Assembly: GCF_964204645.1 (NCBI RefSeq)
Contig: NC_134031.1
Coordinates: 19,093,307-19,157,306 of the forward strand
Source: Tubulanus polymorphus
Lineage: Eukaryota; Nemertea; Palaeonemertea; Tubulaniformes; Tubulanidae
Direction of reading: 5' to 3'
Length of the DNA: 64,000 bases
Shown here: positions 8,001 to 46,592 of the stretch, piece after piece
Layout: the number at the start of each line of letters is the position of its first letter
Numbering within the stretch: position 1 is the first letter of the stretch
The notes under the pieces: generated by a model
Told to the model about the DNA's origin: nothing
The model's input: only the letters and a program-made list of their open reading frames with translations
Database searches by the model: none
Translations under genes and position numbers: made by a program

Positions 8001-11000
8001 AATTCATTGATACCGTAATTAAGATCGAACGCTCATCTGGCAATTTTGCGGTCCCAAATTTGAAACAAACTTCAATATTAATCATGTTATATTACTGGAT
8101 TCATGCATGGATTGTTGCCAGTTGAAATTTCTATTATTATTTGTCTAATCTAGGTGGTTCCATGGTCTCCTATCGAATAAAGATGCTGTTGAACTATTGA
8201 AAGACGACGGTGATTTTCTGGTGCGAGAAAGTAATAAATCTCCCGGTAATTTCGTCATCTCGTTACTTATGGATGAAAAACCAGTTCATCTTCTTGTTGA
8301 ACACAAACCAGCGGTACGTGGTCTAAAATTTGCAAAATTATAAGATTTGTTCCTTAGAAATTATTCATAATGCTAAATGCTAAATTTCTCGTTTTCAGTA
8401 ACTTCAACGATTCAGTGAAATTATGATTAGTTACTGATGACGACTTTCTCATTCTCATTAACTTCAATGATTCAGTAAAATTATGATTAGTTACTGATGA
8501 CGACTTTCTCATTCTCATTAACTTCAATGATTCAGTAAAATTATGATTAGTTACTGATGACAACTTTCTCATTCTCATTAACTTCAATGATTCAGTAAAA
8601 TTATGATTAGTTACTGATGACAACTTTCTCATTCTCATTAACTTCTATGATTCAGTAAAATTATGATTAGTTACTAACAACTACCTTCTCATTCCGGATG
8701 ATTTCAGTAAAATGATAATTATAACTGTAGTGTAGAGAATTAAGCTTTCAATGATGACTTTTCTATATCTGTTTCAGGAGGGTGTGTTTAATATGTCGGG
8801 AAAATCATACAATTCAATGAGCGAAATCATCGACATGATGACCGAATCGGCCTTTTATACGAAAGATGAAACCGCCATCTATCTGAGAACTCCGATCTAC
8901 ACGTCGACGGTTTTAAACGCGGCAGGAATCGCGAACCGCGTTCAACAACTTATCAGCACCGGCGTGAAATACGGTTTGAAAACCACTACAGAAATCGGTT
9001 TTATCGAGGAATTTCAGGTCGGTATTTTTATGAAGAAGTGCCGGAATTTATACCATAACAATTCCGTCAACAATGAGAACCCCCGGGTGTCACTAACTAT
9101 CTCCATCACCTGGCGTGATCAACAGTGCGAAAACTCGATCAAAATTTGACGAATCACGACTCTGGATAGAATCAGTTTGATCCGAAAGTTTCATTCGTAT
9201 CGACAATATTTATGAAATGAAGCGGCTAGAGGGTTACCGAGCCCGATGACATGCCTGTATATTACTACTATATGAGTTGAGTTTATATGAAAAACGGAAA
9301 TCTGGAGAAATCTGGTATCGTCGATCGACACAGTTGACAGCCGAGTCAACGCACTGAAATACAGGGTCCGATCTAAAGGAATGAAAGCCACTTGTCCGGG
9401 GGCCAGCATATCTGAAATTTTGCTTGCCCCCCCTCCAAAAGGCTACTCGCCCTACACAGGCAGTCCGATTGGTGGCACTATCATCTGTTGTATCGAGTTG
9501 GAAAAAAGCTTTGTGACATGAAATTGCACTAGCCCGGGGGACAAGTGATAAATGATAACCTACTTGCCCTGATGAGAATATACTTGTCCCCGGCAATCGG
9601 TGCTTAGATCGGACCCTGGAAATACATGTATTGTATTGATTATTTTTCTAGGCACTTCAAACGATGGATACACGCGGTTATAACCAGGCGATCGCGAAAG
9701 CCGACTTCAATCGAACGAGAAATCGATACAAGAACATTCTACCGTGTATTTATTATCATTTAGTCTACCAAATATTATGCGTGAACTATTTTTGCAATTC
9801 GGATTTAAAAAAAAAACAAATTAATCGTCATTTTCAGATGATCATTGCCGGGTGGTTCTTAGAAACAGCGACCCCAGCACGAAAGGATCTGATTATATAA
9901 ACGCTAGTTATATCACTGTAAGTAAGATACTAAACTCACATAACAAGCCCCACTTGTGTAGTTTTTGCCTATTGGGTTTTAAAACATCGGAAATGAGCTA
10001 ATTTTTACTTGAGGGTCAACTGTGGAACTCGATTCTATACATTTTCACGGTAATTTAACTGTGAAACTGGGGGCCAACTCACAAACTGACTTAACACTTA
10101 TTAAAGTTTCATTACTATAGTGTAATCATGACTACAAAACGCCCCCTAAAATACTAAAATCAAAACTATTTTTGTTAGGTAAAAATTATTGATTTTACAT
10201 ATATCACAGCTTGAAGATGATACTTGTAAACACCAGCGAGTAATCGCCGCTCAAGGTCCGTTACAAGGAACGGTGACTGATTTCTGGAGAATGGTCTGGC
10301 AGGAGAACTCGCGTGTTATTATCATGGTTACGAAAGAGGTCGAATTAGGGAAAGTAAGTGCGGTGCCTGATAAACTCGAACAGCTCCATGTTAGATCAAT
10401 TGAGATTGAGTTGGAATTCTATTGCCAATCTAACCTTACCGGTATGATTTAAGACCACTTTTAAACTTAAGTCGCTACTGGGCCCTGGTTAGAAGTTATA
10501 TTTGATCTAAAAAACTAGCTCTTAGTGACTAAATTTTAGGAAAACAAAAACCATGTTGGTCATTTGCTCAAAACATATTAATGATATGAAACATTTTAAA
10601 GCATAGTTCCCCTATTATATTCACAATTGTTGTTGTGTTTTAGAATAAATGTGCGCGATATTGGCCTGAGGTAGGCGAGACAGCGAACTACGATGCGCCT
10701 AACGGAACGTTTATCATCAGAACCAGCGATGAACAAAATATGCCCGACCTCGTTGTACGACATTTTTACTTATCGATGGAAGGAGAGGTAAAAATCATCG
10801 ACGGTTTCTGATCGTTTTAAAAATTGTTGTATTGGGATTTTTCTGATAAACGTTTCTCGTATTGTAGAAGGCGTCTCCGCGAAAAATCACGCAGTTATTC
10901 TTCAAAGTTTGGCCCGATCACGGAACGCCCACCGATCCCGGTGTAGTGCACAATATGTTGTACGAAGCGAACCAACACCAGCTGCCAAACGCTGGACCTA

Positions 11001-20700: not shown

Positions 20701-22300
20701 CTTTTGTTGTGGATAATGATTAACTAATGATTAGAGAGTCCCATGAATTTGTCATTAGTTCGATTGTCTTCATGAAAATGATTTGAAGTATGACACCACT
20801 GTGTTCAGTTTTCTTCAGCATTTGATCCAATAAAGACTGAGGGATTCCCCGGAAAGATTGCAGTACTGGTGTCCCATAGCCTAACCCACAGACTATAACG
20901 GACTTGTCTCAATTGTTAAATGTTACCGTCAGGGTCCAATATCAATTATTGCCACCAGTATCTTAGCCAGCCTACAGGGATACTACTAGATTTGATCATC
21001 GATACTGGTTTTATTCGTTCAAATGCGGCAACCTCTTATAGTTCCCTGCCTGACTCAGGCAACAGTGAAACTAGAAGGGCTACTACAGTGCAGTCTTACC
21101 CTTGGGTTTCTCCTGTGGATAGATAGCTTTCCTAGTCGGTGGACAATGTAAACTATTATTAGCTGACATTGTTATAACTGGCTGCAGTATCTCTTGATAT
21201 TTATTGTAAGTCTCGACTATTAATCAATATTACTAGACTGGAGAGAGATCTATAATAGTCATCATTGTGGAACTTGATACTCAGATCGGACATAAATCGG
21301 ACTATTATTATTGAACTATTGTCAGAGTATTAATGTCAGCCTCATTTTATGGATTGGTTTTAACACATCGATGTTATCCACAATTTACTTGTTCAAGTTT
21401 TCATTCAGCTAAGAAAATTAGCTCTTAAAAAACTTTCTTCAATTTGAACCTGAAAATCTATAAACAATTTTGATTTTTTGATTGCGTCGTCGATGTTGGC
21501 AATGAAAGATCTGTCATCGATAATGTTATATTTTGAAAACACTCAATTTAAGTTGCAAGAAAATTGAAAAACTAGGGGCAATAGACATTCTGCCCAATTT
21601 ATTCTGCCCAATGTCTGTGTCTGTCTGTCTGTCTGTCTACCTCTCTGTCTAGCTATGTGTCTGTGAAACTTTGATTTTCTAGATCATATATATTTCCCTT
21701 GAGTGAGTAGTTAGTGTCCCTGGTGTCTCTGAGTGAGTAGTTAGTGTCCCTGGTGTCTCTGTTTCTGATATACCCGGTAATATCCGTTCAGAGCGTCGAA
21801 GCACGCACACAGATTGCGTATAGTACCTGTCGACTACGTATCCATGGTAACTGATTTGTCGGCACCTTGTTGTCGTTGTTGTATTCGTAGCAGATGTTTT
21901 TTCCTGTTGATCTATGTTTATTATAGTTCTACATTCATCGACGGATCACTGGTCAACGCGGCAGTCGACCCCCCCCCCCCCCCCCGTTTCTTTCTTTGAC
22001 AGCAATTCCTTTTTTACGTCTATTAAAAATGAAAAATCGATTCGTGAATTTGAAGTAACGTACACCGTTGAATGAAGTCAAATGATTGTAAATCAATGTT
22101 TATCGAATGTCGATATTTTGACGAGTGTTGTAACGTATTGGATCAAATATTTAATACTACAAGTTCGAAAAGGTTTAAGACTTTTCTCGAGGTTTGATTT
22201 ATGCAAGGTGCGGTATCGCAGTTCACCTTTGATTTAATATGTTTCTAATCGAGGCAGAATTTAAATGAAACATCTTATATCACGATTGGTAGAACACTAT
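20700..22300. other. Intergenic stretch, no gene seen
   Basis: Contains a (CTGT)n microsatellite near 21604-21635, a 31-bp duplicated GAGTGAGTAGTTAGTGTCCC block at about 21700 and 21732, and a 14-base C run near 21969. None of the short reading frames resembles a protein. Confidence 0.5.
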
Positions 22301-22313
22301 ATCCGTGTTGACG

Positions 22314-22540
22314 CGATGAGGAGAGAATCCCACAATTATAATAAAAAGTCCGAAAATGAAACTTCGAGATAGTAGTTTATTTCAACGTTTCGACTATATC
22401 CTAATAGTTATCTTCAGGAAACTGAAGATGACATTCCTGAAGATGACTATTAGGATATAGTCGAAACGTTGAAATAAACTACTATCTCGAAGTTTCATTT
22501 TCGGACTTTTTATTATCATTGTGGGATTCTCTCCTCATCG
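22314..22540. mobile_element. Long palindromic hairpin element 1 with CTGAAGA...GAAAC core
   Basis: About 227 bp; the two arms of about 105 bp are nearly perfect reverse complements. The ends are ATGAGGAGAGAATCCCAC and GTGGGATTCTCTCCTCAT. Near the centre the plus strand has CTGAAGA (22437-22443), a 6-bp stem GACTAT/ATAGTC (22445-22450 / 22457-22462) and GAAAC (22463-22467). That order resembles the core of the hammerhead ribozymes found in Penelope-like retroelements. No ORF is present. Confidence 0.75.
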
Positions 22541-22599
22541 AAACATCTTATAATAGTGAAATCCGAAATTTCTATCGAGATTATGTGATCTATTTTTTG

Positions 22600-26333: not shown

Positions 26334-29300
26334 GTAAGTAACACCTTATATCTATCTATTAGGCATGTTTACACCATTGTAATCGGTGAAAATGTTGTTG
26401 TTTTATATCACTCCTACAGGCATTTTTTTACAAATTCAAAAGTCTTTCCCTCCCGCATAGCCCCCGAGCGTTGCTATAAAGGTCTAAGTTCTACAAAAGA
26501 AAAAATGTTCCTTTATTTATTAGTCATCCCTGATTTTCTGGAATCGTCAGTTATTGGTATCTCTGCAGTCATATCTCTCCCCCCCACCACTAACACTTCA
26601 GGCTCTTATTATTCACGATTTCTTTGAAAACATTTTTTCAATACGGGGTTCGTTTTTTGCCTGCCAGGAAATGGCTGCATATAAAACATCGCGCGCATGA
26701 TCATGTTATCAGATCGTGATTTTCAAATACCGGTAGTCAAATCCCGACCGGTTTTCATGAGCGAAAATGTCTTTGAAAGAATGAATCACTCAAAAATCGT
26801 CGCTCATTTTTTTCTGAAAACATTAACGGCAGAACTTAGTTAAAATAACCCCTTGGAAAGTAATGATTAAACGGTTTACTATAAACCGGAGAATTTCATC
26901 CTCAATTTCAATAATTTCATATTGGATATAATGAACCGTTGATAATGATCTTGTATCGTGCTGCCTTGTAAACCATCGGCTAGAATTTAGAGATTTCTTT
27001 CAATCCCTGCTAAAAATCCCTTGTGTTTTAACACTTAAAATCTAGTCTCAGCTGGCCATAGAACCTTCTCGTACTCTGCCACATAGAACTCAGGGGCCAG
27101 TTGCACAGTCATGACTTAAGTCTAAAAGTGGTCTTAAATCTTAAGACTGGTCTTAAATTGTTAGATTGGCTATAGAACTAAGTCTTAGACTGGTCTTAAG
27201 TCTAAGCCATGACTATGCAACCGGCCCCAGGGGTAGTTGCACAGTCATGACTTAAGTCTAAAAGTGGTCTTAAATCTTAAGACTGGTCTTAAATTGTTAG
27301 ATTGGCTATAGAACTAAGTCTCAGACTGGTCTTAAGTCTAAGCCATAACTATGCAACCAGCCCCAGGAATATATTTTACCTAGTCCGATTAAATCTAGTC
27401 CATCAATCGATGATGTTTTCAAATCAAATCTCAAAACCCATTTTGTTCATCAAAGCTTTTAGTTAAACCATAGTTTTAGTTTTCCCTTTGTAATATGTAA
27501 AGCCAATGAGCATATTTTATATGGTTTTTAGGCTCAATGAATCATTATTATCATGAATTATTATTAAAATGAACAGATTTATCAGATCCCCTGATGTTCA
27601 TCCTCACGTATATAGTGTATTGCATGTTGTTTATTATTTTTAGTTTTTTTGTTTGTATTTTGTGTTTTTAGGTTATTACGCGTTGGTTGAGAATGAATTT
27701 CGTTATGTTCCGTACCGAGAACCGAGAACCCCCGCAGTCACCGGTAGTCGAGCGCAAAAAAAAGGCATGCCGCTTTATATTCATTGATGTGTTGCAATCA
27801 TCGGGAAAACGATGCTTGGCACATAAAAAAGTTTTTTAAGACAGAGTCATTTAATCATTGAATGGTGCGAAAAGTGTTTAGTTTAACATAGGCTATAGAA
27901 ATTTAGTTCTGATCTTGTCACTTAACATTGACAGGGACTGTATGTTGACATTGACAGGGACTGTATGTTGACATTGACAGGGACTGTATGTTGACATTGA
28001 CAGGGACTGTATGTTGGCAGTCTTTGAATGTTGACAGACATTGAATGTTACCGGTCTGTGAATGTCGCCAATCTCTGAATGTTGCCAGTAACTGAATGTT
28101 GACAGTCTCTGAATGTTGGCAGTCTCTGAATGTTGACAATAACTGAATGTCGCTAGTCTCTGAATGTCGCCAGTCTCTGAAAATTGCCAGTAACTGAATG
28201 TTGGCAGTCTCTGAATGTTGACAGTCTCTGAATGTTGACAGACATTGAATGTTGGCATTAACTGAATGTTGACAGTCTCTGAATGTTGGCATTAACTGAA
28301 TGTTGACAGTCTCTGAATGTCGCCAGTCTCTGAATGTTGACAGTAACTGTTCAATGTTATTGAAATCAGAATTGTGTTCATTCAGATTGACGACACTCCT
28401 CAGTCAGTGTTTACACGCTATGTGTATTTCAGTTATATAAACATTGTGACACAAGTTTCAAATGAATTGAATTCCACAGGTCTGTGGTGAACACTGTGGT
28501 GAATTCTGTCGACCGGGTCTCTAATAATAATTCATTCACCTAATTACAGTAAAATGTGTCAAGCATTGTTCGTCAACTCTCCATCACAACCTAACTAATT
28601 AATGGATCTAGGCTGATCTACTAATAAACCTTAACTCCCTTCTGATTACGTTATTTAGAATGTGTTCTAGATTTTAACCAGCATTTACGTTTAGCAAAAA
28701 GTCTGTCCTAAATTGGTCTGGTCGATAAATTTTAGGACGAACCAATTGAGAATGACCAAAATGACTTTATTCTAGAGGGCTGTATTTTGCAGGGAGCAGT
28801 TTCGAAAAGTGTCATTTTCGCAAATATTGTCGTGACGCTATAGAACTGCCCTTTTTCAGGTTTTCTCTGCCCCCCAAAGATGCAAATGCTAGGTACCTGT
28901 TCCCTGTTCTAGAATGCACCGTTTTGCTGTGTGATAAGAAACTTCGCATTAATTGCTGTGTTTTGTTTTATTTTGTTTCATTCTAAATGAGTTCAATTGT
29001 AGCTCAGCATAAGGGTTATATTCAGGATGATACAGGGATAAAAGAGGATGATTTATGATGATACAGGGATAATGCAGGATGATACAGGGGTAATACAGGA
29101 TGATACAGGGATAATACAGGATGATACACGGATAATACAGGATGATACACGGATAATACAGGATGATACAGGGATAATACAGGAAGATACATGGATAATA
29201 CAGGAAGATACAGGGATAATACAGGGATAATACAGGATGATACACGGATAATGCAGGATGATACAGGGATAATACAGGACGATACAGGGATAATACAGGA

Positions 29301-32300
29301 TGATAGAGGGATAATACGGGACGATACGGGATGATACAGGGATTATGATATTGACAGTCATGTGAATTGCTGCAGCGGTGATAATGAAAAAAAGAAATTA
29401 TGCGTATCACGAAATTTTCAGTGATTTGTCGTCATTGAGTGAAGTGAATGTTGTTATTACGAACAAATATAACACTTAGAGTTTGCGTGATGACTGTGTG
29501 AAATGGAATATAGAACTAGGGAGAAAACCTGTCAATACCTGTCATACACTGAATAAACAGTCAGTTTCATGTTGTTCCTGGTTAGAATTTAACTCATAAA
29601 GTACCAGGCCCTCGCCTAATTTTAACGATAGGTAAAATTACTCCAAACGAATTGTGGTAGTGACTCTCCTCACTTGCCACAGCATCATTTTGATAGCGTC
29701 TTAGCGTTTATATATCAACGCACTCTAGACACGCGACAGTTTAACTCAGTGTCTGGTCCAGGCCAGTTTGATCCGGGCCAAATTATTGGGGATGATGCGT
29801 GGATCATTCATGTTTGGCGTCTACCGTGGTGTCAGTGTTTGATGTCTAGGGTGGTATCAGTGTTTGGCGTCTACCGTGGTGTCAGTGTTTGATGTCTAGG
29901 GTGGTATCAGTGTTTGGCGTCTACCACGGTGTCAGTGTTTGATGTCTAGGGTGGTATCGGTGTTTGGCGTCTACCACGGTGTCAGTGTTTGATGTCTAGG
30001 GTGGTATTGGTGTTTGGCGTCTACCACGGTGTCAGTGTTTGATGTCTAGGGTGGTATCGGTGTTTGGCGTCTACCACGGTGTCAGTGTTTGATGTCTACG
30101 GTGGTATCGGTGTTTGGCGTCTACCACGGTGTCAGTGTTTGATGTCTACGGTGGTATCGGTGTTTGGCGTTTACCGTGTTGTGTATCAGTAATGAATGCA
30201 TCGGTTTTAATTGAGTCCTGGTATAAATCATTCTCCTCACTGAAAGAGAGAGAGAGAGAAATCGAAACAATCTATAATTATTGACTACATTCACTGGCAA
30301 TCAAGAGTACTTTACCATGTAGAATAGCGTCAGTATTCATTGTATTGTCCGCAATAGTTTCCTGTTCGCTGATAATGGCTGTACTGTATACAATAAAGCT
30401 GCATTAGAGAAATACCTCAGGACCCAGTTCCACAGTCGTGGGTTAAGATTTGAATCTGAGTTAAAACATTGAAAATGAACTAACTTTAACTCAGAGTTTA
30501 CTCTAACTCACAACTGTGGAACCGGGCCCAGTAGTCTTCACCTCAAACTATTAAACCCCAATTAGATTCGTTTGAATTAAACGTTATTCGAGTTCGGTGT
30601 CGCATGAAAATTGTTTTGATGAATTTCGAGGTTGGAGCGCTATCTCGAATGTAAACTTATTAGATATAAAGCACAGAAATTTAGACAAATCTCTTCGTTG
30701 AGTTCTCATTACATATGATACCAGTTGATTCCGGTTAATTACATCGATAACGCTGTATTTATATGCATTTGAATATTTGATGAATACTTTATTCAGATTG
30801 CAGTAAAATGAGACCCCAGCATTGCTGCTGCTGCTGCTGCTGCTGCGGTCTCTTGGGGTGATGATTGACGATATTTATCAGAATTTATTAAATTTGTCGA
30901 CTTAATTATAGTAATATCGATTGAATCTTTATTGAATTACGGTGAACTGTTGTGGACAGTGATGGAAGTATCAGTGCTTGGTGATATGTAGCCAGCAGCC
31001 AGGTCAATGTGTTCCAAGCGTTTTTATCGAAAATGCCGGTCAATTCCATTTCTAAAACCGACCAATTCGGACCGATCAATACGCCAATCCAGGTCCACAG
31101 ACCATTTGAATCAGTTGAAATTCAGGTTTTTCTGGTTTATTCAAATATTGTATCGGTTAATAGTTATAGTTATACATTAAGTCTTCGAATATGAAATTTT
31201 ATTAGGCTGCCCTAGAATTTAAGTATTTGACGCATATGACTGTAGGATAAACATGCATTGATTTAAAACATACCCGGCCTGGTTTTATTGTAATCTATGT
31301 TTGAAATGATATTTCAGTTGTTTGGATTGGATATGTGTAATGATCGAAATTTGAGCGATGAGTTTGAAATATGACTCGGAGGGCTGTAGAGTTTCATCGG
31401 AAAGTTTCTTAACCAACGAAGATTTAATGTTGAAATCGTCATGGAACAATTTCACTCGTGCGTTTTGATGATTTTGTATTTGATGATTATTTCATGTTTA
31501 AATCAGTTTATTTTAATCATGTTCTCACGATGGATTAGAAAATGATTAATTATTTTTGGCAAATTAATCTCGTTGCCATACGGTGTCCGGCTTAACGTGG
31601 ATTAATATCGACAGAAGATGAATTGCCCTCCTAATAATAACATAATTTCAGTGTCAAGAGAAGGAGGAGATCACAGTTGACTCAGTCACCGCTGGTCTCT
31701 CGTCTATTCACGGTTTAGTTTCATAAAAATGATGAATTCCTAAATCATGAGACGAGAAGATACACAATATCCGTGTAAGATGATAATGAGAGAAATCCCA
31801 CAATAACGAAGCCAAAACGAGAAACTTGAATAGAAGAGTATAATATTTGCGCAACGTTTCGGCTAAAGACTATTAGCCATCATCAGAGTACGCCTGATGA
31901 TGGCTAATAGTCTTTAGCCGAAACGTTGCGCAAATATTATACTCTTCTATTCAAGTTTCTCGTTTTGGCTTCGTTATTGTGGGATTTCTCTCATTCCTAA
32001 ATCAATTTAAGATGAATGAGTTAATGGAATTATCTTCATGTAGTTAATGGGTTAATGGGAATGAGTTAATGGAATTATCTTCATGTAGTCGCCATACAGT
32101 ATTAATATATGCTTGTGTTGTATCAAACTAATGATGATAATGATAAGTTAATCAAATGACCGTTCCGATAATTGATGATGTGAAACGTTTTTCTATTGAA
32201 AACTGTGAATTTGTTCGGGAATGGTTTACATCATGATCAGAGTAGCGACTTACCCATAAATCAGGGAGATATCGGGGAATTTTCTTTTCTTTAAAAAAGT

Positions 32301-35300: not shown

Positions 35301-38300
35301 TCTCACTCCTTCTTACGACTGACCTGTTCTTGTTTAATACCACACGAGATCGATAGAGATCAACCATAAATCGGTGAGGAATTCAGTGGATAAAATAGCG
35401 CTCAAACCTTGAAATACAAAATATATTTAAACAGATAGAGAGTTAAACAAGAGCAACAGTTGAAATCTTCATTTTAAATGAATTTTATTTGAATCTAAAA
35501 TGAAGGTTTAGATAGTTTTGCTATTGTTTAACTAACACTGAGTCAGTTGTGTATGTACTGAGGATAAACGTATAATTGCACTGATTAATTTGATGTCAAT
35601 TGATGTGTAATGATAATACACACCGTATCTATTATATGTATATGATGTGTTAATTGCTCGTCTATTGATGGATGTATGATGTATAGAGGTCTCTGGGGAG
35701 GAGTTTAATGAGGTAACGCAGCGTTATACTCCGCGCGCGCGGTGATACGCCGAGTCAAGTGAACATCCTCTCGACTCATCAATTCCGTCTGCCACTCGCT
35801 CCTCGTAATAAATCAATAATATCTTCTGCTACGGCGACGACGACCGAGCAGACGCCAGCCGGTATCGATGGTGATCATCATTTTTCTGCATTATTGAAAA
35901 TCTTTATCCGCGCTCTTCCGTGCGATGTACATCTCGTTAGATCGGGCTTTTAAAAAGATCACTGATAAGTCTTCTGTCGGGGATGATTCAATGGAGTGGT
36001 AATAGGGTCTCGGACCCCCGCCTTTTCATTCAAGTTGCCCTTCTGTCAAAACAAAGCTGCTTTATATGAGCAGTATATATTTCTATTGTATCTCTCATTC
36101 CTTACAATAGGTCTTTCAGCTGAAAAAAAGCTTAAAGCTGAAAATTCAAAGTTCTATGATTGTTACGAATTAATCGATGTTTTAAAGCTTTTCAGTTTCT
36201 AAATTATTCTACCGCTCTATATATGTTTTCATGTTGTTGCTATATTTCAGGAAATCGCGTCTTTGCTGATCGCGTACGATCGACATAAAGAATGGCAGTG
36301 CAAAGACGTGAAACAGTTACCGCACAGCGGTTCGATGTTACTGTACAATCGAACTCACGTGAAATTCCGCAACGACGGCTACTGCTGGAAAAAACGTAAA
36401 GATGGCCGCACGACGCGCGAGGATCATATGAAACTAAAAGTTCAAGGAGTCGAGGTAACAGACACCCGCCGGAAACAGTAGAATATACGATTACAACTGA
36501 ACTATCTAGAAATAAAATATCATCTGTTGATTACACATGAACAATAGCGGTAATCACTGGACATGATTTGACCCGTGCCAAACAGGCACAGACCCATTTG
36601 GTACCCATGCGAACGGTTGGCCCCGGTCAAATTTTGTATGATCTCGGCTATTGTATAACGGACACTGCCAAAACCTAGAATCCCATATTCTTATGATTGA
36701 TCGTGAAGAATGTTTACATCCAGCGAGGGTGGTGAGAGCCACTTCTAGGTCTTTATAATGTATAAAACAGTTCACTTCAGTTAGAATTATGAACCCTGTA
36801 TGTATTTAATGAACAGCCCTCGACTTTTTCTTATCTAAAAGAGATTAGCAGCTTGTATTGGTAATCAATTAGTACCGCCGCGATCGGTTCCATCAAAATC
36901 AAAACATAGAAATATCACCCTAATTTGGGCTGCTCTTCCTATTTCTCTAAGACAGTTCAGCGGTGGCTAATTTTTGTTTTTTCTGTTTCTGTTTTCGTTG
37001 CAGTGTATATACGGCAAATACTTTCATTCTGCCATTCTTCCAACATTCCACAAGCGTTGCTATTGGTTACTACACGTAAGTATTCGCCGTATGACGGTGT
37101 TGTGTCGATGTCAACCTCCTCTATCTCCCCATCCCCCCCCCCCATGGCAGTCTGTCAACGACCCCCCTGTGTGTTCAAGTGCTCTTTTGATGAAACAGGG
37201 AGTGCTGTCTCTCCTCTACTCTCTCTCCTGTCTCTCTCCTCTCTCTCCTGTCTCCTCTCTCTCCTCTCTCCTCTCTCTCCTCTCTCTTCTACTCTCTCTC
37301 CTCTCTACTCTTCTGTCTTCTCTCTCTCCTCTCTACTCTCCCCTCTCTCTCTTCTCTCCTCTCTCTCTCCTCTCTCTGTCTCCTCTCCTCTCTCCTCCTT
37401 GCTCCTCTCTCTCCTCTCTCTCGCTCCTATCTATATAGGCAAACTGGTTTCAATTTTCTGCACGTTTTTCTGTGTCGAATTGCCAAAAAAAAACCGTTTA
37501 AACGATCTCTTCCCCTGAGCTTTGTAAAATAGACAACCTCACAAAGGATCCGGTTCCGTATTGATTGTATTACCCGCAAGCCTGAACGTGTATCATCGTT
37601 TCAAATTTCCTAATATTATAAATATTCGCGTTGTTTTTATTTTTCTCGAACAGAACCCCGATATCGTGTTAGTTCATTATCTGAATGTTCCGTATTCCGA
37701 TGATAATAAACTGTCGATGGCATCACTTCCGATTCTGGGTAAATCTCATTACTGGACGCACGCCGAATTACAAGCTCAATTACGACCTATGTGTGAGTAT
37801 AACGACTGCGAAAATCAAATCTCATGATTCACTGTGACTTTATGTCTTAAGTCGGTTGTAGGTGCGATACCCTCATAACTATGATTTCTTAGTAGAACGA
37901 TGACCACACTCAAACGTGGTGAACGGATAATAAGATAAAATCCCACTATTTACAGATTAAAAGAATTTAAAAACCAGAATTTATTTATTAAATCTAAAAT
38001 ATTTAAAAGACACGACGTTTCGATCTCACCCTAGAAACCCTGTCACACCTGACGATGATCTCTAGGGTGAGATCGAAACGTCGTGTCTTTTAAATATTTT
38101 AGATTTAATAAATAAATTCTGGTTTTTAAATTCTTTTAATCTGTAAATAGTGGGATTTTATCTTATTATGATTTCTTAGATTTCGGAAAAATACTCGTGT
38201 TCATCCTCAGAGTTTCTATTTGAAGATGGGCTGATGTATGAAATGTCACAACTACTGTCAATCTTGTAGTTAAGCCTTACAGTACTGACTAATGCACTGA

Positions 38301-41300: not shown

Positions 41301-44300
41301 GGTCACCACATCAATCCATGGTTCATGGGTTTGAATGAGTTTCTTAGTCAATAGTTTTTTCCTGGCTTCTTTGTTCATAAAAAGAAACCCCAAATAACTA
41401 GTTACAATGACAAAAAGTAAAACTATGAGAGTTATCATCCTGTCTCAATTCTATCATAGCCATTTTCAAAATTGTGTCTATCTAACTGTAAACTTTGAAA
41501 ATCACTCATCGAGTTAGTTGAAATATCAAGGCTCTCGTAGTTTTATTTCATAGTTTCGGGTTTCTTTAATTGAATCAGATGGTCACTTGTCTATGGAAAC
41601 CCTCAAGTCCTTTAAGAGCGGAAAAGAAATAGGAATGCTGAACCTATTAAACCACTGTGTAGTTAGATTCAGGGATGTAAAATTCTAATGATTGGAAACG
41701 AATGATTTTCAGATCTCAAAACCGTTAACTACAATGATTGACGCGTTTGAACAGCACTGTATTGATTATTGCGTAGAGTGTAGTTTAAGAGCGTGGTTAC
41801 CGCTCAGTCAATTACCGATTTCATCATCCGACTATAAAGGAATGACTCTGTTACACCTGGCAGCGGCGTTAGGATACAGTCATCTCATACAAACGCTGAT
41901 TAAATGGAGGAACGAACGTCCGAGTATTGTGTTAGAATACGAGGTCGACGCGTTATCCCTAGATAACAACTCTTCAACACCATTTGTGAGTATAGAAAGT
42001 CTTTTCATTATGAAGTCATAACTTAGTTCATAAGTGGTAATAAATCTTAAGACTGGTCTTAAGATTGACTGTAGAACTAAAAGAGCTTAGACTGGTCTTA
42101 TTTGTTAGACTGGCCATGGAACCAAAAAGAAACTTAGACTGGTCTTTAGGTGTTAGATTGTTTATAGTACCAAAAGGAGCTTAGACTTGTCTTAAGTTGT
42201 AAGATTGGTTGTAAAACCAAAATCAGCTTAGATTGGCCTTAAGTTGTTAGATCAACCAAAATGAGCTTAGACTGGTGTTAAATCCATGTCCTGATTGTGC
42301 AACTGTTTCGGTCCTGGTTGGTGAGGTAGATTTAGGGATGATCATATTGAACTCACTGTTTTGAGGTCTATTCAAATTGTATTTCGTGTATTGTAGGCGT
42401 GGGCGTGTGGTTTGAATAAGATTGAAACGTCAGTCGTTCTGTACAGATGGAATCAGAGCGCTGTTAACGTGTGTTCCAGCGACGGAATGATGCCTCTGAC
42501 TCTCGCTTCAAACTACGGTAATCGCGCGTTGATAGAACGCATTCAAAAACTACGAACTTCAATCGAGAATTCCTCGCGCGATGTGTTCCGTGAACCGACC
42601 GCATTCGGCTTCAGTAAATACACGAACAGTTCTCCGCCGCCATCGTTCTCCGGTTTAACGAGTTCCCGCACGACCGTCGAAGTCGCCGCGACGACCAAGG
42701 GAAAGAATAGTTCGTCGTCTGCCGCGAAATCTAAACGCGCCGAACGTCTGCGAAAACGTCTGTCGGTTGAAATATTCCCGAGCGTCTCGAAAACGACCGC
42801 CGACCCGACCTCGACTGGTCGCAATCTAGACGAGCCGATGTCGGCTAGTCTCCGCTCGGCGAACTCCGACCCGCATCTTACGGCGTCCCTCGACGCGATG
42901 ACCTCCAGAGATAATCCGATGTTTTCGTCATCGAATATGGGCGGAGCTAACGATTTCGGGGGCCTGCCAATCACGTTCATGCAGACGGAATGTCAACAAC
43001 TCGCGAGTAAAGACACCGAACCGAAACACAGCGCGATGGATACAGGTAAAATATTCACATCCTACCTCGACAGGGATTCAAACCTGATGGCATCGATACA
43101 TACTCTTCTATAGCACAAATCCCTGCCTGAATAGACAAAATGAAAAACACCACCCTGATGATGTCAGAAATGTTTCATTATTAGCCCGGGTTGTTTTGTT
43201 TTGTATAAAGAAGCAATCTTACCGATGCTGCATGTTTTTCATGCTGCTAACCTGGCTTATCGGGCAGGAATTTGCAATTGAGAGATAAGAGAAGATTACA
43301 AAGTTCTGAAGAATTAATGATTATATTTTCGTTATAGATCGTAGTGAGAGTCCATTCATCGACGTCGAGCGAATCTCGTCGGACGAGGACGATCTGAAAT
43401 CTCGCCGCGGCGCCGGTGAATCAAGCGCGGCCGGTGATCATAAGAATCAGATGGTAACGTTAGCGAAACAGATTATAGCAGCGATGCCTGAACGAATTAA
43501 ACTATCACCGAGTCGCAGTGACGATAGCGGCATCGTACGGGATCGTAGCTCCTCGTACGGGTCTCTCGTCTCGAATTGTGAAATATCGCAGTCCGTCTGC
43601 ACCGACGAATCAGCCATGTCTGCGCCGCTAGGGGGCGCTGATAGCTTAGCATTTGATGAATATAGGTACGTATCGGTATAAGAAAGAAAACCTAAATTTC
43701 CCTGACACTTGACCAAAACATCCCTCATTACATAATATGATATCCTCAATGGGAAATCCAAAATCCTTATTTTCTATCATCTCTGACCTTCACCAAGAAT
43801 CTTAGTGTCTGATGTACCACAGACACTAAGATGCGAACGACATTTTCTCGATACTTTTAGATCACTGCAGCTTTAAACCACCAGAAATCCAGTTTCACTA
43901 AACCGATTGTGAAAAATAAACTATCGTTACAAACCTCATACATTCAGTTTTCTTATTATTATATTCATTTGGAGGTTCATTCATCATAGTCCGTGCTTGA
44001 TGCGATATAAATACAGAAATAGCAAAAATGACACCATTTTTTCACTTTGAAACTAGGCATTGTAACACTGTAGTTCGTTAGCAACAAGACAACTTGAGCG
44101 ATGCGTGTCTCATCGCTAAACAGCGCATCATTTTTGTATCTTAAATTTAATCGTACTAAAATCAGATTTATCGTCAAAATGTTATAATGAACAAACGTAA
44201 GACATCATAAGGTTAGTGTAGATAGTTTATTCATCAAAATCGGTTGTTTATTTGCTGAGATATCGCAGTTTGAACACGGACAAAAAAGCCGACCAAATTC

Positions 44301-46592
44301 TGGTCGGCAACTGTACAGCGAATTTGAATGCACGCGTCTGGGTGGTTGGTTACACTAGGATCGTAGAGCGACGGAGATCACTGGTGGAGACAACCGCTGC
44401 CAGTGCTGGGTGAACTCTGACCATAAATTCCCTGATTAGATTATAAGATACCGGTATCCTCTATGAAGGCTGTTTCTTATCAAGAGGTTCCTTTTGCTAC
44501 AGCAAGAACAAGATGCCAAAACTTCCCTGATTTAATTATAAGGTATCCTCAGTGGAAGCGGTTTGTTATTGAGAGGTTCATTTTGTCACTCATCACCAGC
44601 AAGAACAACAAGATGCCAAAACTTCCCTGATTTAATTATAAGGTATCCTCAGTGGAAGCGGTTTGTTATTGAGAGGTTCATTTTGTCACTCATCACCAGC
44701 AAGAACAACAAGATGCCAAAACTTCCCTGATTTAATTATAAGGTATCCTCAGTGGAAGCGGTTTGTTATTGAGAGGTTCATTTTGTCACTCATCACCAGC
44801 AAGAACAACAAGATACCAAAAATTGAAATTCCTTGAATCTTCCCAAATTTGAAGCTAAATCGAAAAAACTTCCCGTGTTTTATTCATGTATCGTTGTTAA
44901 ATATTGTCTATTGATGTAGGTATAGCGCGGACATAGGGACTCCGGCTTCGTCGCTGAGTCCTGACTCCTCGTGTCTTCAGAGTCCTCTCAGTTTCCTGCT
45001 CGACTCCCCACCGCCGACTATGTCAGAGTTTCAAGAATATTTCAACGCGCCATCGACTTACATGGAGAAAGACTTTTCGCAACTGACTTTATCCGGTAAA
45101 ACAATCGAAGAATGGAAATCAATGTTCGACGTAATGAGGAAAGAATTTTACAGTTTTACAAAATTTTTCGAATTTTCAGACCACGAACAGAGAAGACTTT
45201 ACGAAGCGGCGAAGATAATTCAGAATTTCTACCGTCAATATAAAGATCGGCAACAACAACAGAATCAACGTATTAAAGAGATTGAAGCGGCCATCTTGAT
45301 TCAGAGTTACTACAGACGTTACAAACAGGTACATATATTACAGTCGTTCCCGCAGTGCCGGGAAATCGGGAAAAACTTTGGAATTTCAAAATTATATTTC
45401 CTGGTTTGTAAACATTTGTAAATATTATATGAGTTTCCTCTAATCTGGGAAATATTCAGAAATATTTGGGAAATTCATTTTACACTTTTTCATGTAGCAT
45501 TGTTCCGGAATGTCCATAACTTTTTCCATGTCTCCATGCCTACCAACTGAAGTTTTTTTCAAATCATCAAAAATTAGAAACATTTGAAAAATAGGCTTGG
45601 AAACATGAACATTCAAATTATGGGGTCACTTTATCTCCATATTCTATTGACGACCAACAAAGTTGAACTAGACATTACCTGTTTGTTGAAATAGACATTA
45701 CCTGTTTTCAAGTTTAATGATTTGATACCTCATTATTTCAGTACGCGTACTATAAGAAGATGTGTCAAGCGGCTGTTCTGATTCAGAGTCAGTTCCGTAG
45801 TTATCAAGTTCAGAAGAAATACAAACGAAGTCGCGACGCGGCGACCGTCATTCAGAATCAATACCGCGCTTACAAAGAACACGAACGTTTTAAAAAGTCA
45901 CGCGACGCCGCGAAAATTATACAACAAAGATTTCGATACAGGTGAATATCAGTCGGATTGAGAGGGAAAAGACATCTGCTGATGCTGCCCTGAGTAGCAT
46001 TCAGTAGATTGAGGAGAAAAACTAATCTTGTTCAGTATCAGTTTGATGAGACTTTGTCAAATGTGATAGAATACGTTTTCATGTTTTGGTTTTACCTATA
46101 CCGTCTGCGTCTGCTTTCTTTTAGTCGGGCCTTTCGGGCTGCTACTGATAGGCAGTGTTACTGCTATGCCCTTTCGAGGAAGTTAACTGACAATGCTATA
46201 AGTCTTGAATTCGGGATAATTGTTGTTTGAATATTTTACAGGAGTCATTATCAGCGTAAACAGGGAGGAGGACAAGACGTGTCTCGATCCATGCAGAATT
46301 TAATGCGACAATCGGTGGATAGGTAAATATAAAACCATCGTTTCGTCCCCTCCAGCCATCGATCCATCGAGAATCACATTTAACAGTGCATCGTGAGTGA
46401 CTGACCTAGCTGGTTCTAACGACAGTTCTAGCATGCCTACTAATTTAAACTATCCCAGAAAGAGAGAACAAAAAATGGAGAATGCCAAGTTTAGTTTAAA
46501 ATCGGATGTGTTTATATTGTTTTCAGTTATTATAACTTCGGTCTATATTCAATGATGAGACCTGAGATTTGGGAGAGGTAAAACACGATATA

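Follow-up and report, generated by a model that had tools for sequence, protein, structure and literature searches.

A perfect hairpin in the Tubulanus polymorphus genome is a very short inverted copy of a Penelope-like element

The perfect hairpin at 31785-31995 of a 64,000-nt window from Tubulanus polymorphus (GCF_964204645.1, NC_134031.1:19,093,307-19,157,306, forward strand; the window is the whole stretch of DNA analysed) does not represent a free-standing hairpin family. Instead, a Penelope-like element (PLE) has left here a very short, self-inverted insertion, one of hundreds in the genome. Both arms consist of the element's 5' leader (pseudo-LTR, pLTR); the element itself is a canonical endonuclease-bearing (EN+) PLE, and the hammerhead-like core in the arms is, judged by its sequence, the PLE's own minimal hammerhead-type ribozyme motif, located at the predicted start of the PLE RNA. 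With a probability of roughly 0.6, we read the hairpin as the product of one retrotransposition event of the EN+ PLE, in which two cDNAs, one per nick, were joined at the ends copied from the RNA 5' ends.

The palindrome noticed in the sequence-only reading is real: two arms of 102 nt, 100% complementary, flank a 7-nt loop, making 211 bases in all, and the predicted RNA fold reaches -182 kcal/mol compared with -42 for shuffles (z -33). Each arm contains one core (CTGATGAT-stem-GAAAC), with CTGATGATGGCTAATAG at 31870-31886(-) and 31894-31910(+), and TCCCACAAT occurs four times in the window (0.5 expected), exactly at the hairpins 22314 and 31785. The whole element, 31748-31995, is larger than the palindrome alone because it includes a 37-nt tail found on the left side only, and it is bracketed by the direct repeat (A)TTCCTAAATCA (Table 1). 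The claim that the core is present on both strands stands for the core letters and fails for the 5' strand of stem I (AGTACGC), which is restricted to the plus strand because the left arm ends at CTGATG. The idea that either transcript could fold the core is not supported, as the stem I partner is available on one strand only and the palindrome as a whole would form a single perfect rod. Nor is there support for the hairpin as a functional unit, since the core has its place in the 5' leader of the PLE mRNA and not in the hairpin as such. An Rfam search of the hairpin region at E<=10 gave sub-threshold matches only, for example mir-722 (E 2e-7) and mir-633 (E 6e-6) at 31845-31935 on both strands, which mostly reflect the long hairpin. 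Mir-722 has ..AACGUUU..GC..GAAACGUU.. in common with this region, and some annotated miRNA hairpins may be derived from inverted PLE leaders.

Table 1. Features of the three inverted PLE insertions in the window (window coordinates).
Feature	Position	Strand	Remarks
Target-site duplication (TSD), left copy, ATTCCTAAATCA	31736-31747	.	11-12 bp; first letters common to the pLTR end
One-sided PLE tail, sense ATCATCTTACACGGATATTGTGTATCTTCTCGTCTCA	31748-31784	-	with ACAC..GTGT stem-loop
Tail-bearing arm, PLE pLTR (5' leader)	31785-31886	-	truncated at the first letter of the core
Hammerhead-like core, minus-strand copy	31856-31886	-	without the 5' strand of stem I
Apex AGTACGC	31887-31893	+	first 7 nt of the predicted PLE RNA
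Hammerhead-like core CTGATGAT-GGCTAA-TAGTCT-TTAGCC-GAAAC	31894-31924	+	without helix III
Predicted cleavage site	3' of T31927	+	GTTG, cut after GTT; by analogy with hammerhead numbering
Tail-less arm, PLE pLTR	31894-31995	+	ends at the proximal reverse-transcription start (GGGATTTCTCTC)
Target-site duplication, right copy	31993-32004	.	
Second inverted PLE insertion	22268-22552	.	TSD 22268-22279 and 22541-22552; tail 22281-22317; arms 22314-22540
Third inverted PLE insertion	37881-38179	.	TSD 37881-37892 and 38168-38179 (12 bp); tail 37893-37926; arms 37927-38169

The window contains three such hairpins (22314-22540, 31785-31995 and 37927-38169). As had been reported, the hairpin at 22314-22540 shows the same architecture with unrelated arm sequence (arms of 107 nt, 98% complementary). 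The common core and ends beside unrelated arms extend to all three, which have CTGANGATG...GAAACGTYG close to the apex and GTGGGATT towards the ends; in the hairpin at 37927-38169 these take the form of a related core, CTGACGATGATCTC...GAGATCGAAAC, and the end AATCCCACTAT. Stem II reads GACTAT/ATAGTC in the family of the second insertion and GATCTC/GAGATC in that of the third. The hairpins at 22314 and 37927 are the same kind of event in other PLE families, in agreement with the earlier suggestion that one mechanism makes hairpins from different source elements: the same event occurs in several unrelated PLE families. Each of the three tails contains a short stem-loop whose two strands change in step (ACAC/GUGU, AACAC/GUGUU and ACCAC/GUGGU), the AC-rich ACCAC..GTGGT being that of the third insertion. 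Among other repeats in the window, the arrays at 27091-27367 and 42072-42252 have a similar unit (..GACTGGTCTTAAGT..TTAGATTGG..) with periods of 136 bp and 47/94 bp and are probably fragments of one dispersed repeat, and clean minisatellites are found at 8385-8694 (60 bp x 5.2, 95%), 29811-30175 (50 bp x 7.3, 97%) and 44507-44821 (100 bp x 3.2, 99%).

The identity of the arms was established at tandem elements elsewhere in the genome. At C1:15223974, the core of the 31785 hairpin lies 515 nt downstream of a GIY-YIG match (Pfam PF01541, E 2.7e-7) that is part of an open frame of 817 aa, and the 721 bases of C1:15223440-15224160 contain, in order, the GIY-YIG domain (NIGVYKISCKVCNKIYIGETGRDLHKRIREHK...), a stop, a 3' UTR with TATAAATA, and TCAGTACGCCTGATGATGGCTAATAG, which is this core. 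On C1, a same-strand core follows 7 of 14 GIY-YIG matches at a distance of 515-586 nt (chance 0.00135 per match). The genome holds at least 150 GIY-YIG matches, many in frames of 817-841 aa, and the second family likewise has 833-aa frames with GIY-YIG; the sequence of the domain is found again at 98-100% in the family of the 31785 hairpin and at about 74% in the other. The pLTR of the 31785 hairpin follows the 817-aa GIY-YIG frame in 2,857-bp tandem units, the tandem period being 2,846-2,862 bp in most cases (about 2,857 bp). The adjacent unit, at a distance of 2,857 bp, has the tail immediately before ATGCTTCCC..., where a frame begins with its first ATG and stays open. Adjacent GIY-YIG pairs are arranged head-to-head (-/+) in 22 cases and tail-to-tail (+/-) in one. 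The element shows these traits of EN+ PLEs: a GIY-YIG domain in a single ORF of about 800-850 aa, pLTRs of tandem copies together with an inverted pLTR, a tail at one end (37 nt here, 30-40 bp in the trait), and a short TSD of 10-15 bp. The 3' part and the start region of the frame were read; an RVT_1 profile search of the genome ranked other retroelements first, and the 1.5-kb flanks of the first loci contained no PLE ORF and 3' UTR only. Tandem and head-to-head PLE arrays at C1:15219334-15228597 and C5:7313132-7321005, with units of 2,856-2,857 bp and 817-aa open frames, possibly reflect recent activity.

The hammerhead-like character of the core, CUGANGA/GAAAC with a covarying stem II, is borne out, with the core letters themselves being required by the search pattern. 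In a comparison of 28 distinct cores, pairing holds in 90.5% of the cells of stem II (slid controls, at most 43%), and five of the six pairs change on both sides. There are 50 double-change cells compared with 17.4 after shuffling (0 of 500 shuffles as high), counts that overstate the number of independent changes because the core sequences are related. Stem I can form 3-6 bp in three families, between the first RNA nucleotides and the sequence that follows the predicted cleavage site, with a predicted probability of 0.15-0.96. Helix III is absent in the families seen, where GAAAC-GU-H runs on with no loop. All of them also have an additional U after the CUGANGA box, ahead of stem II (CUGANG-AUG), which the second search pattern required; the canonical hammerhead consensus has no U at this point. 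At the Rfam gathering score, the canonical type I/III hammerhead had no match in the window, and an RF00008 search of the genome gave no match while its control was equally silent. By its sequence, the core fits the minimal PLE hammerheads without helix III, type I variants that were reportedly described by Cervera and de la Pena in 2014 and by Lunse et al. in 2017.

Genome searches with the core pattern of the first two families returned 840 + 795 matches, and a broader pattern 1,672 + 1,641, with zero control matches for either. At least five stem II types occur among the matches listed: GGCTAA/TTAGCC, GACTAT/ATAGTC, GATCTC/GAGATC, GGCTGT/ACAGCC and GGCTAAC/GTTAGCC. The copies comprise palindromes, longer inverted pairs and single 5'-truncated ends, and many of them match the 31785 copy over nearly its full length (nearest, 93%). 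A set of 30 copies, consisting of 27 further genome loci and the three window hairpins (31785-31995 is L001 and 22314-22540 is W22314), was read individually. A direct repeat of 10-15 bp is present at both outer boundaries in 28 of the 30, and the tail lies on exactly one side in 29, so each hairpin represents one insertion event. The copies' own TSDs and their copy-specific apices rule out an assembly artefact. Compensatory evolution of the arms, the check proposed with the sequence-only reading, was not found: comparing arm with arm in the older copies L011, L012, L013 and L016 revealed differences at 4-11 of about 78 positions and no matching changes. The hairpin is not maintained. Copies L002, L006 and L045 adjoin long frames that by eye resemble genes of large DNA transposons (ATPase-like, DNA-polymerase-like).

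The restriction of the tail to one end extends beyond the copies read. With exact patterns for the family of the 31785 hairpin, all 26 simple inverted copies, from 115 bp to 5.1 kb, have exactly one tail. In the second family, one tail was found in 30 of 34 adjacent end pairs, or in 31 of 34 by a hand count that takes the outer ends of tandem elements; none is two-tailed, and three have no exact tail match, where the tail may be hidden by mutation. One exception is a complex cluster at C1:15223385-15228578 with exact tails at both outer ends. Independent use of two start sites would leave one half of the copies one-tailed. The kind of element and its inverted structure are already known; the strict one-tail rule is the added regularity, and no statement of it was found in the PLE literature compared here.

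The apices lie near the predicted 5' end of the RNA. In both families with upstream sequence, the distance from the TATA box to the A of TCAGT/TCATT is 31 nt, a normal spacing for a TATA/initiator promoter, which points to this A as the RNA start (+1); for the apex of the 31785 hairpin, the TATA box is the one of the tandem element and +1 is the A of TCAGT. In most of the legible short palindromes, the apex falls on this position or close to it. Given this spacing and these apices, the arms are best read as cDNA extending from near the ORF to the RNA 5' end. Apices extend further in L026, L040 and L046, and less clearly in L021, which read-through RNA from an upstream unit would allow. Both arms of L005 and L010 are complete to +1 with a 1-nt spacer between them; microhomology is seen at the apices of L002, L003, L004, L006 and L011, and filler apparently templated from the arms at those of W22314 and L014. 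The tail-less arm is the longer one in L001 and L012. Rare variants common to both arms occur within L006, L010, L021, L026 and L040.

In the mechanism we propose, the PLE RNA would begin at an arthropod-type initiator (TCA), with a minimal hammerhead motif without helix III in roughly its first 45 nt. The PLE reverse transcriptase-endonuclease would cut both target strands with a stagger of 10-15 bp, and cDNA synthesis on sense RNA would be primed from both nicks. Of two fixed start sites just 5' of the ORF, the distal one would give a cDNA that contains the tail, and the proximal one, 37 nt upstream, a cDNA without it. Both cDNAs would run off the RNA 5' end, and their 3' ends would be joined apex to apex by end-joining with microhomology or filler, leaving an inverted pLTR pair inside a target-site duplication. 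Joining of two cDNA 3' ends is suggested by the 1-nt spacers, microhomology and filler at the apices, and the scheme as a whole is supported by the one-tail counts, the 22:1 head-to-head bias, the TSDs and the +1-proximal apices. The PLE protein of a lizard cuts both target strands and extends them, with starts at two adjacent internal sites that bound the tail (PMC11167929). Against two-ended priming, the arms of one copy carry common rare variants, as snap-back copying predicts; two-ended priming fits them only if both templates came from the same source locus or the arms were homogenised later. The near-absolute one-tail rule also needs each start site to be used once, and no factor enforcing this was seen here. 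The complex C1 cluster with a tail at either outer end likewise speaks against it.

Snap-back copying on the sense RNA is the chief rival, and we regard it as a real but clearly less probable alternative. Here, a single tail-bearing cDNA would reach the RNA 5' end, fold back, copy itself and be opened into an inverted repeat, with copying halted at the proximal site so that the second arm lacks the tail. Besides the rare variants held by both arms, the apices of L002, L003, L004, L006 and L011 speak for it, as they are compatible with a 3'-CTGA that folds onto TCAG, the tail-bearing arm being the longer one. However, the 1-nt gap between the complete arms of L005 and L010 is too short for a snap-back loop, the tail-less arm is longer in L001 and L012, some apices contain filler, and a further rule would be required for the copied tail to be lost so precisely. 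Self-priming on antisense PLE RNA, the model for rotifer Penelope (PMC3846280), would also yield head-to-head palindromes; because it gives identical ends, it leaves the single tail per copy unexplained, and the apex coincides with a TATA/initiator start on the sense strand, which makes this model improbable.

Two readings place the hairpins outside ordinary PLE retrotransposition. A short unit with a hammerhead core would suit a retrozyme-like non-autonomous element copied via circular RNA, yet the copy boundaries fall at PLE start sites and close to the predicted RNA 5' end rather than at the ribozyme cleavage site (after GTT in GTTG), and the loci read contain no short tandem monomers of the retrozyme type; we consider this origin very improbable. 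Palindromic arms and hundreds of dispersed copies would likewise be expected of a foldback or MITE-type DNA transposon with long terminal inverted repeats. Its probability is close to nil: the TSD length varies from 10 to 15 bp, solo and 5'-truncated copies exist, and the asymmetric ends with their one-sided tail, together with arms that are pLTRs of GIY-YIG elements, refute a DNA transposon.

The one-tail rule bears on how PLEs replicate and makes their insertion mechanism directly testable. The model from 2013 relies on self-priming on antisense RNA, and the biochemical work of 2024 goes no further than the extension of both strands. Hundreds of short, datable insertions record the steps in their ends, apex and duplications, so the models can be separated by counting. 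Inverted PLE leaders also offer a plain origin for dispersed minimal hammerhead motifs. More broadly, we see about even odds that PLEs insert by a coordinated reaction at two ends that are not equivalent, templated by the same sense RNA or by sense RNAs from the same source, and that the dispersed minimal hammerheads of animals are largely its shortest products.

The structure described here has close counterparts in known systems. In Penelope of Adineta vaga, flies and fish, pLTRs are present, the insert is completed by an inverted pLTR and flanked by a short TSD, one inverted pLTR may carry an optional 31-bp tail, and palindromes at the inverted junction and a head-to-head arrangement have been described (PMC3846280). 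All of these features are alike in T. polymorphus, whereas many copies here consist of the inverted leader only, and the tail, 'optional' there, is found at exactly one end in nearly all inverted copies here. According to PMC7761336 and PMC6466107, minimal PLE hammerheads are type I variants (CUGANGA...GAAAC) with helix III reduced to ACGU, present in thousands of dispersed copies and located in the PLE pLTR. The core, the reduced helix III, the dispersal and the pLTR location are the same here, and the extra U before stem II distinguishes the families seen here. The Poseidon PLE of Anolis carolinensis (PAc) has an AC-rich tail stem-loop and a hammerhead with stems I and II only; it starts about 110 nt inside the ORF, which begins at stem II, and cleavage by the lizard hammerhead required protein and was dispensable for insertion in vitro (PMC11167929). 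PAc resembles the present elements in the two adjacent start sites that bound the tail, the AC-rich stem-loop and a hammerhead limited to stem II and, here, a possible stem I, and it resembles our proposal in the extension of both target strands. In contrast, PAc starts inside the ORF whereas the tail here immediately precedes the first ATG of the open frame, and the PAc ORF starts at stem II whereas the possible stem I here would start at the predicted RNA +1.
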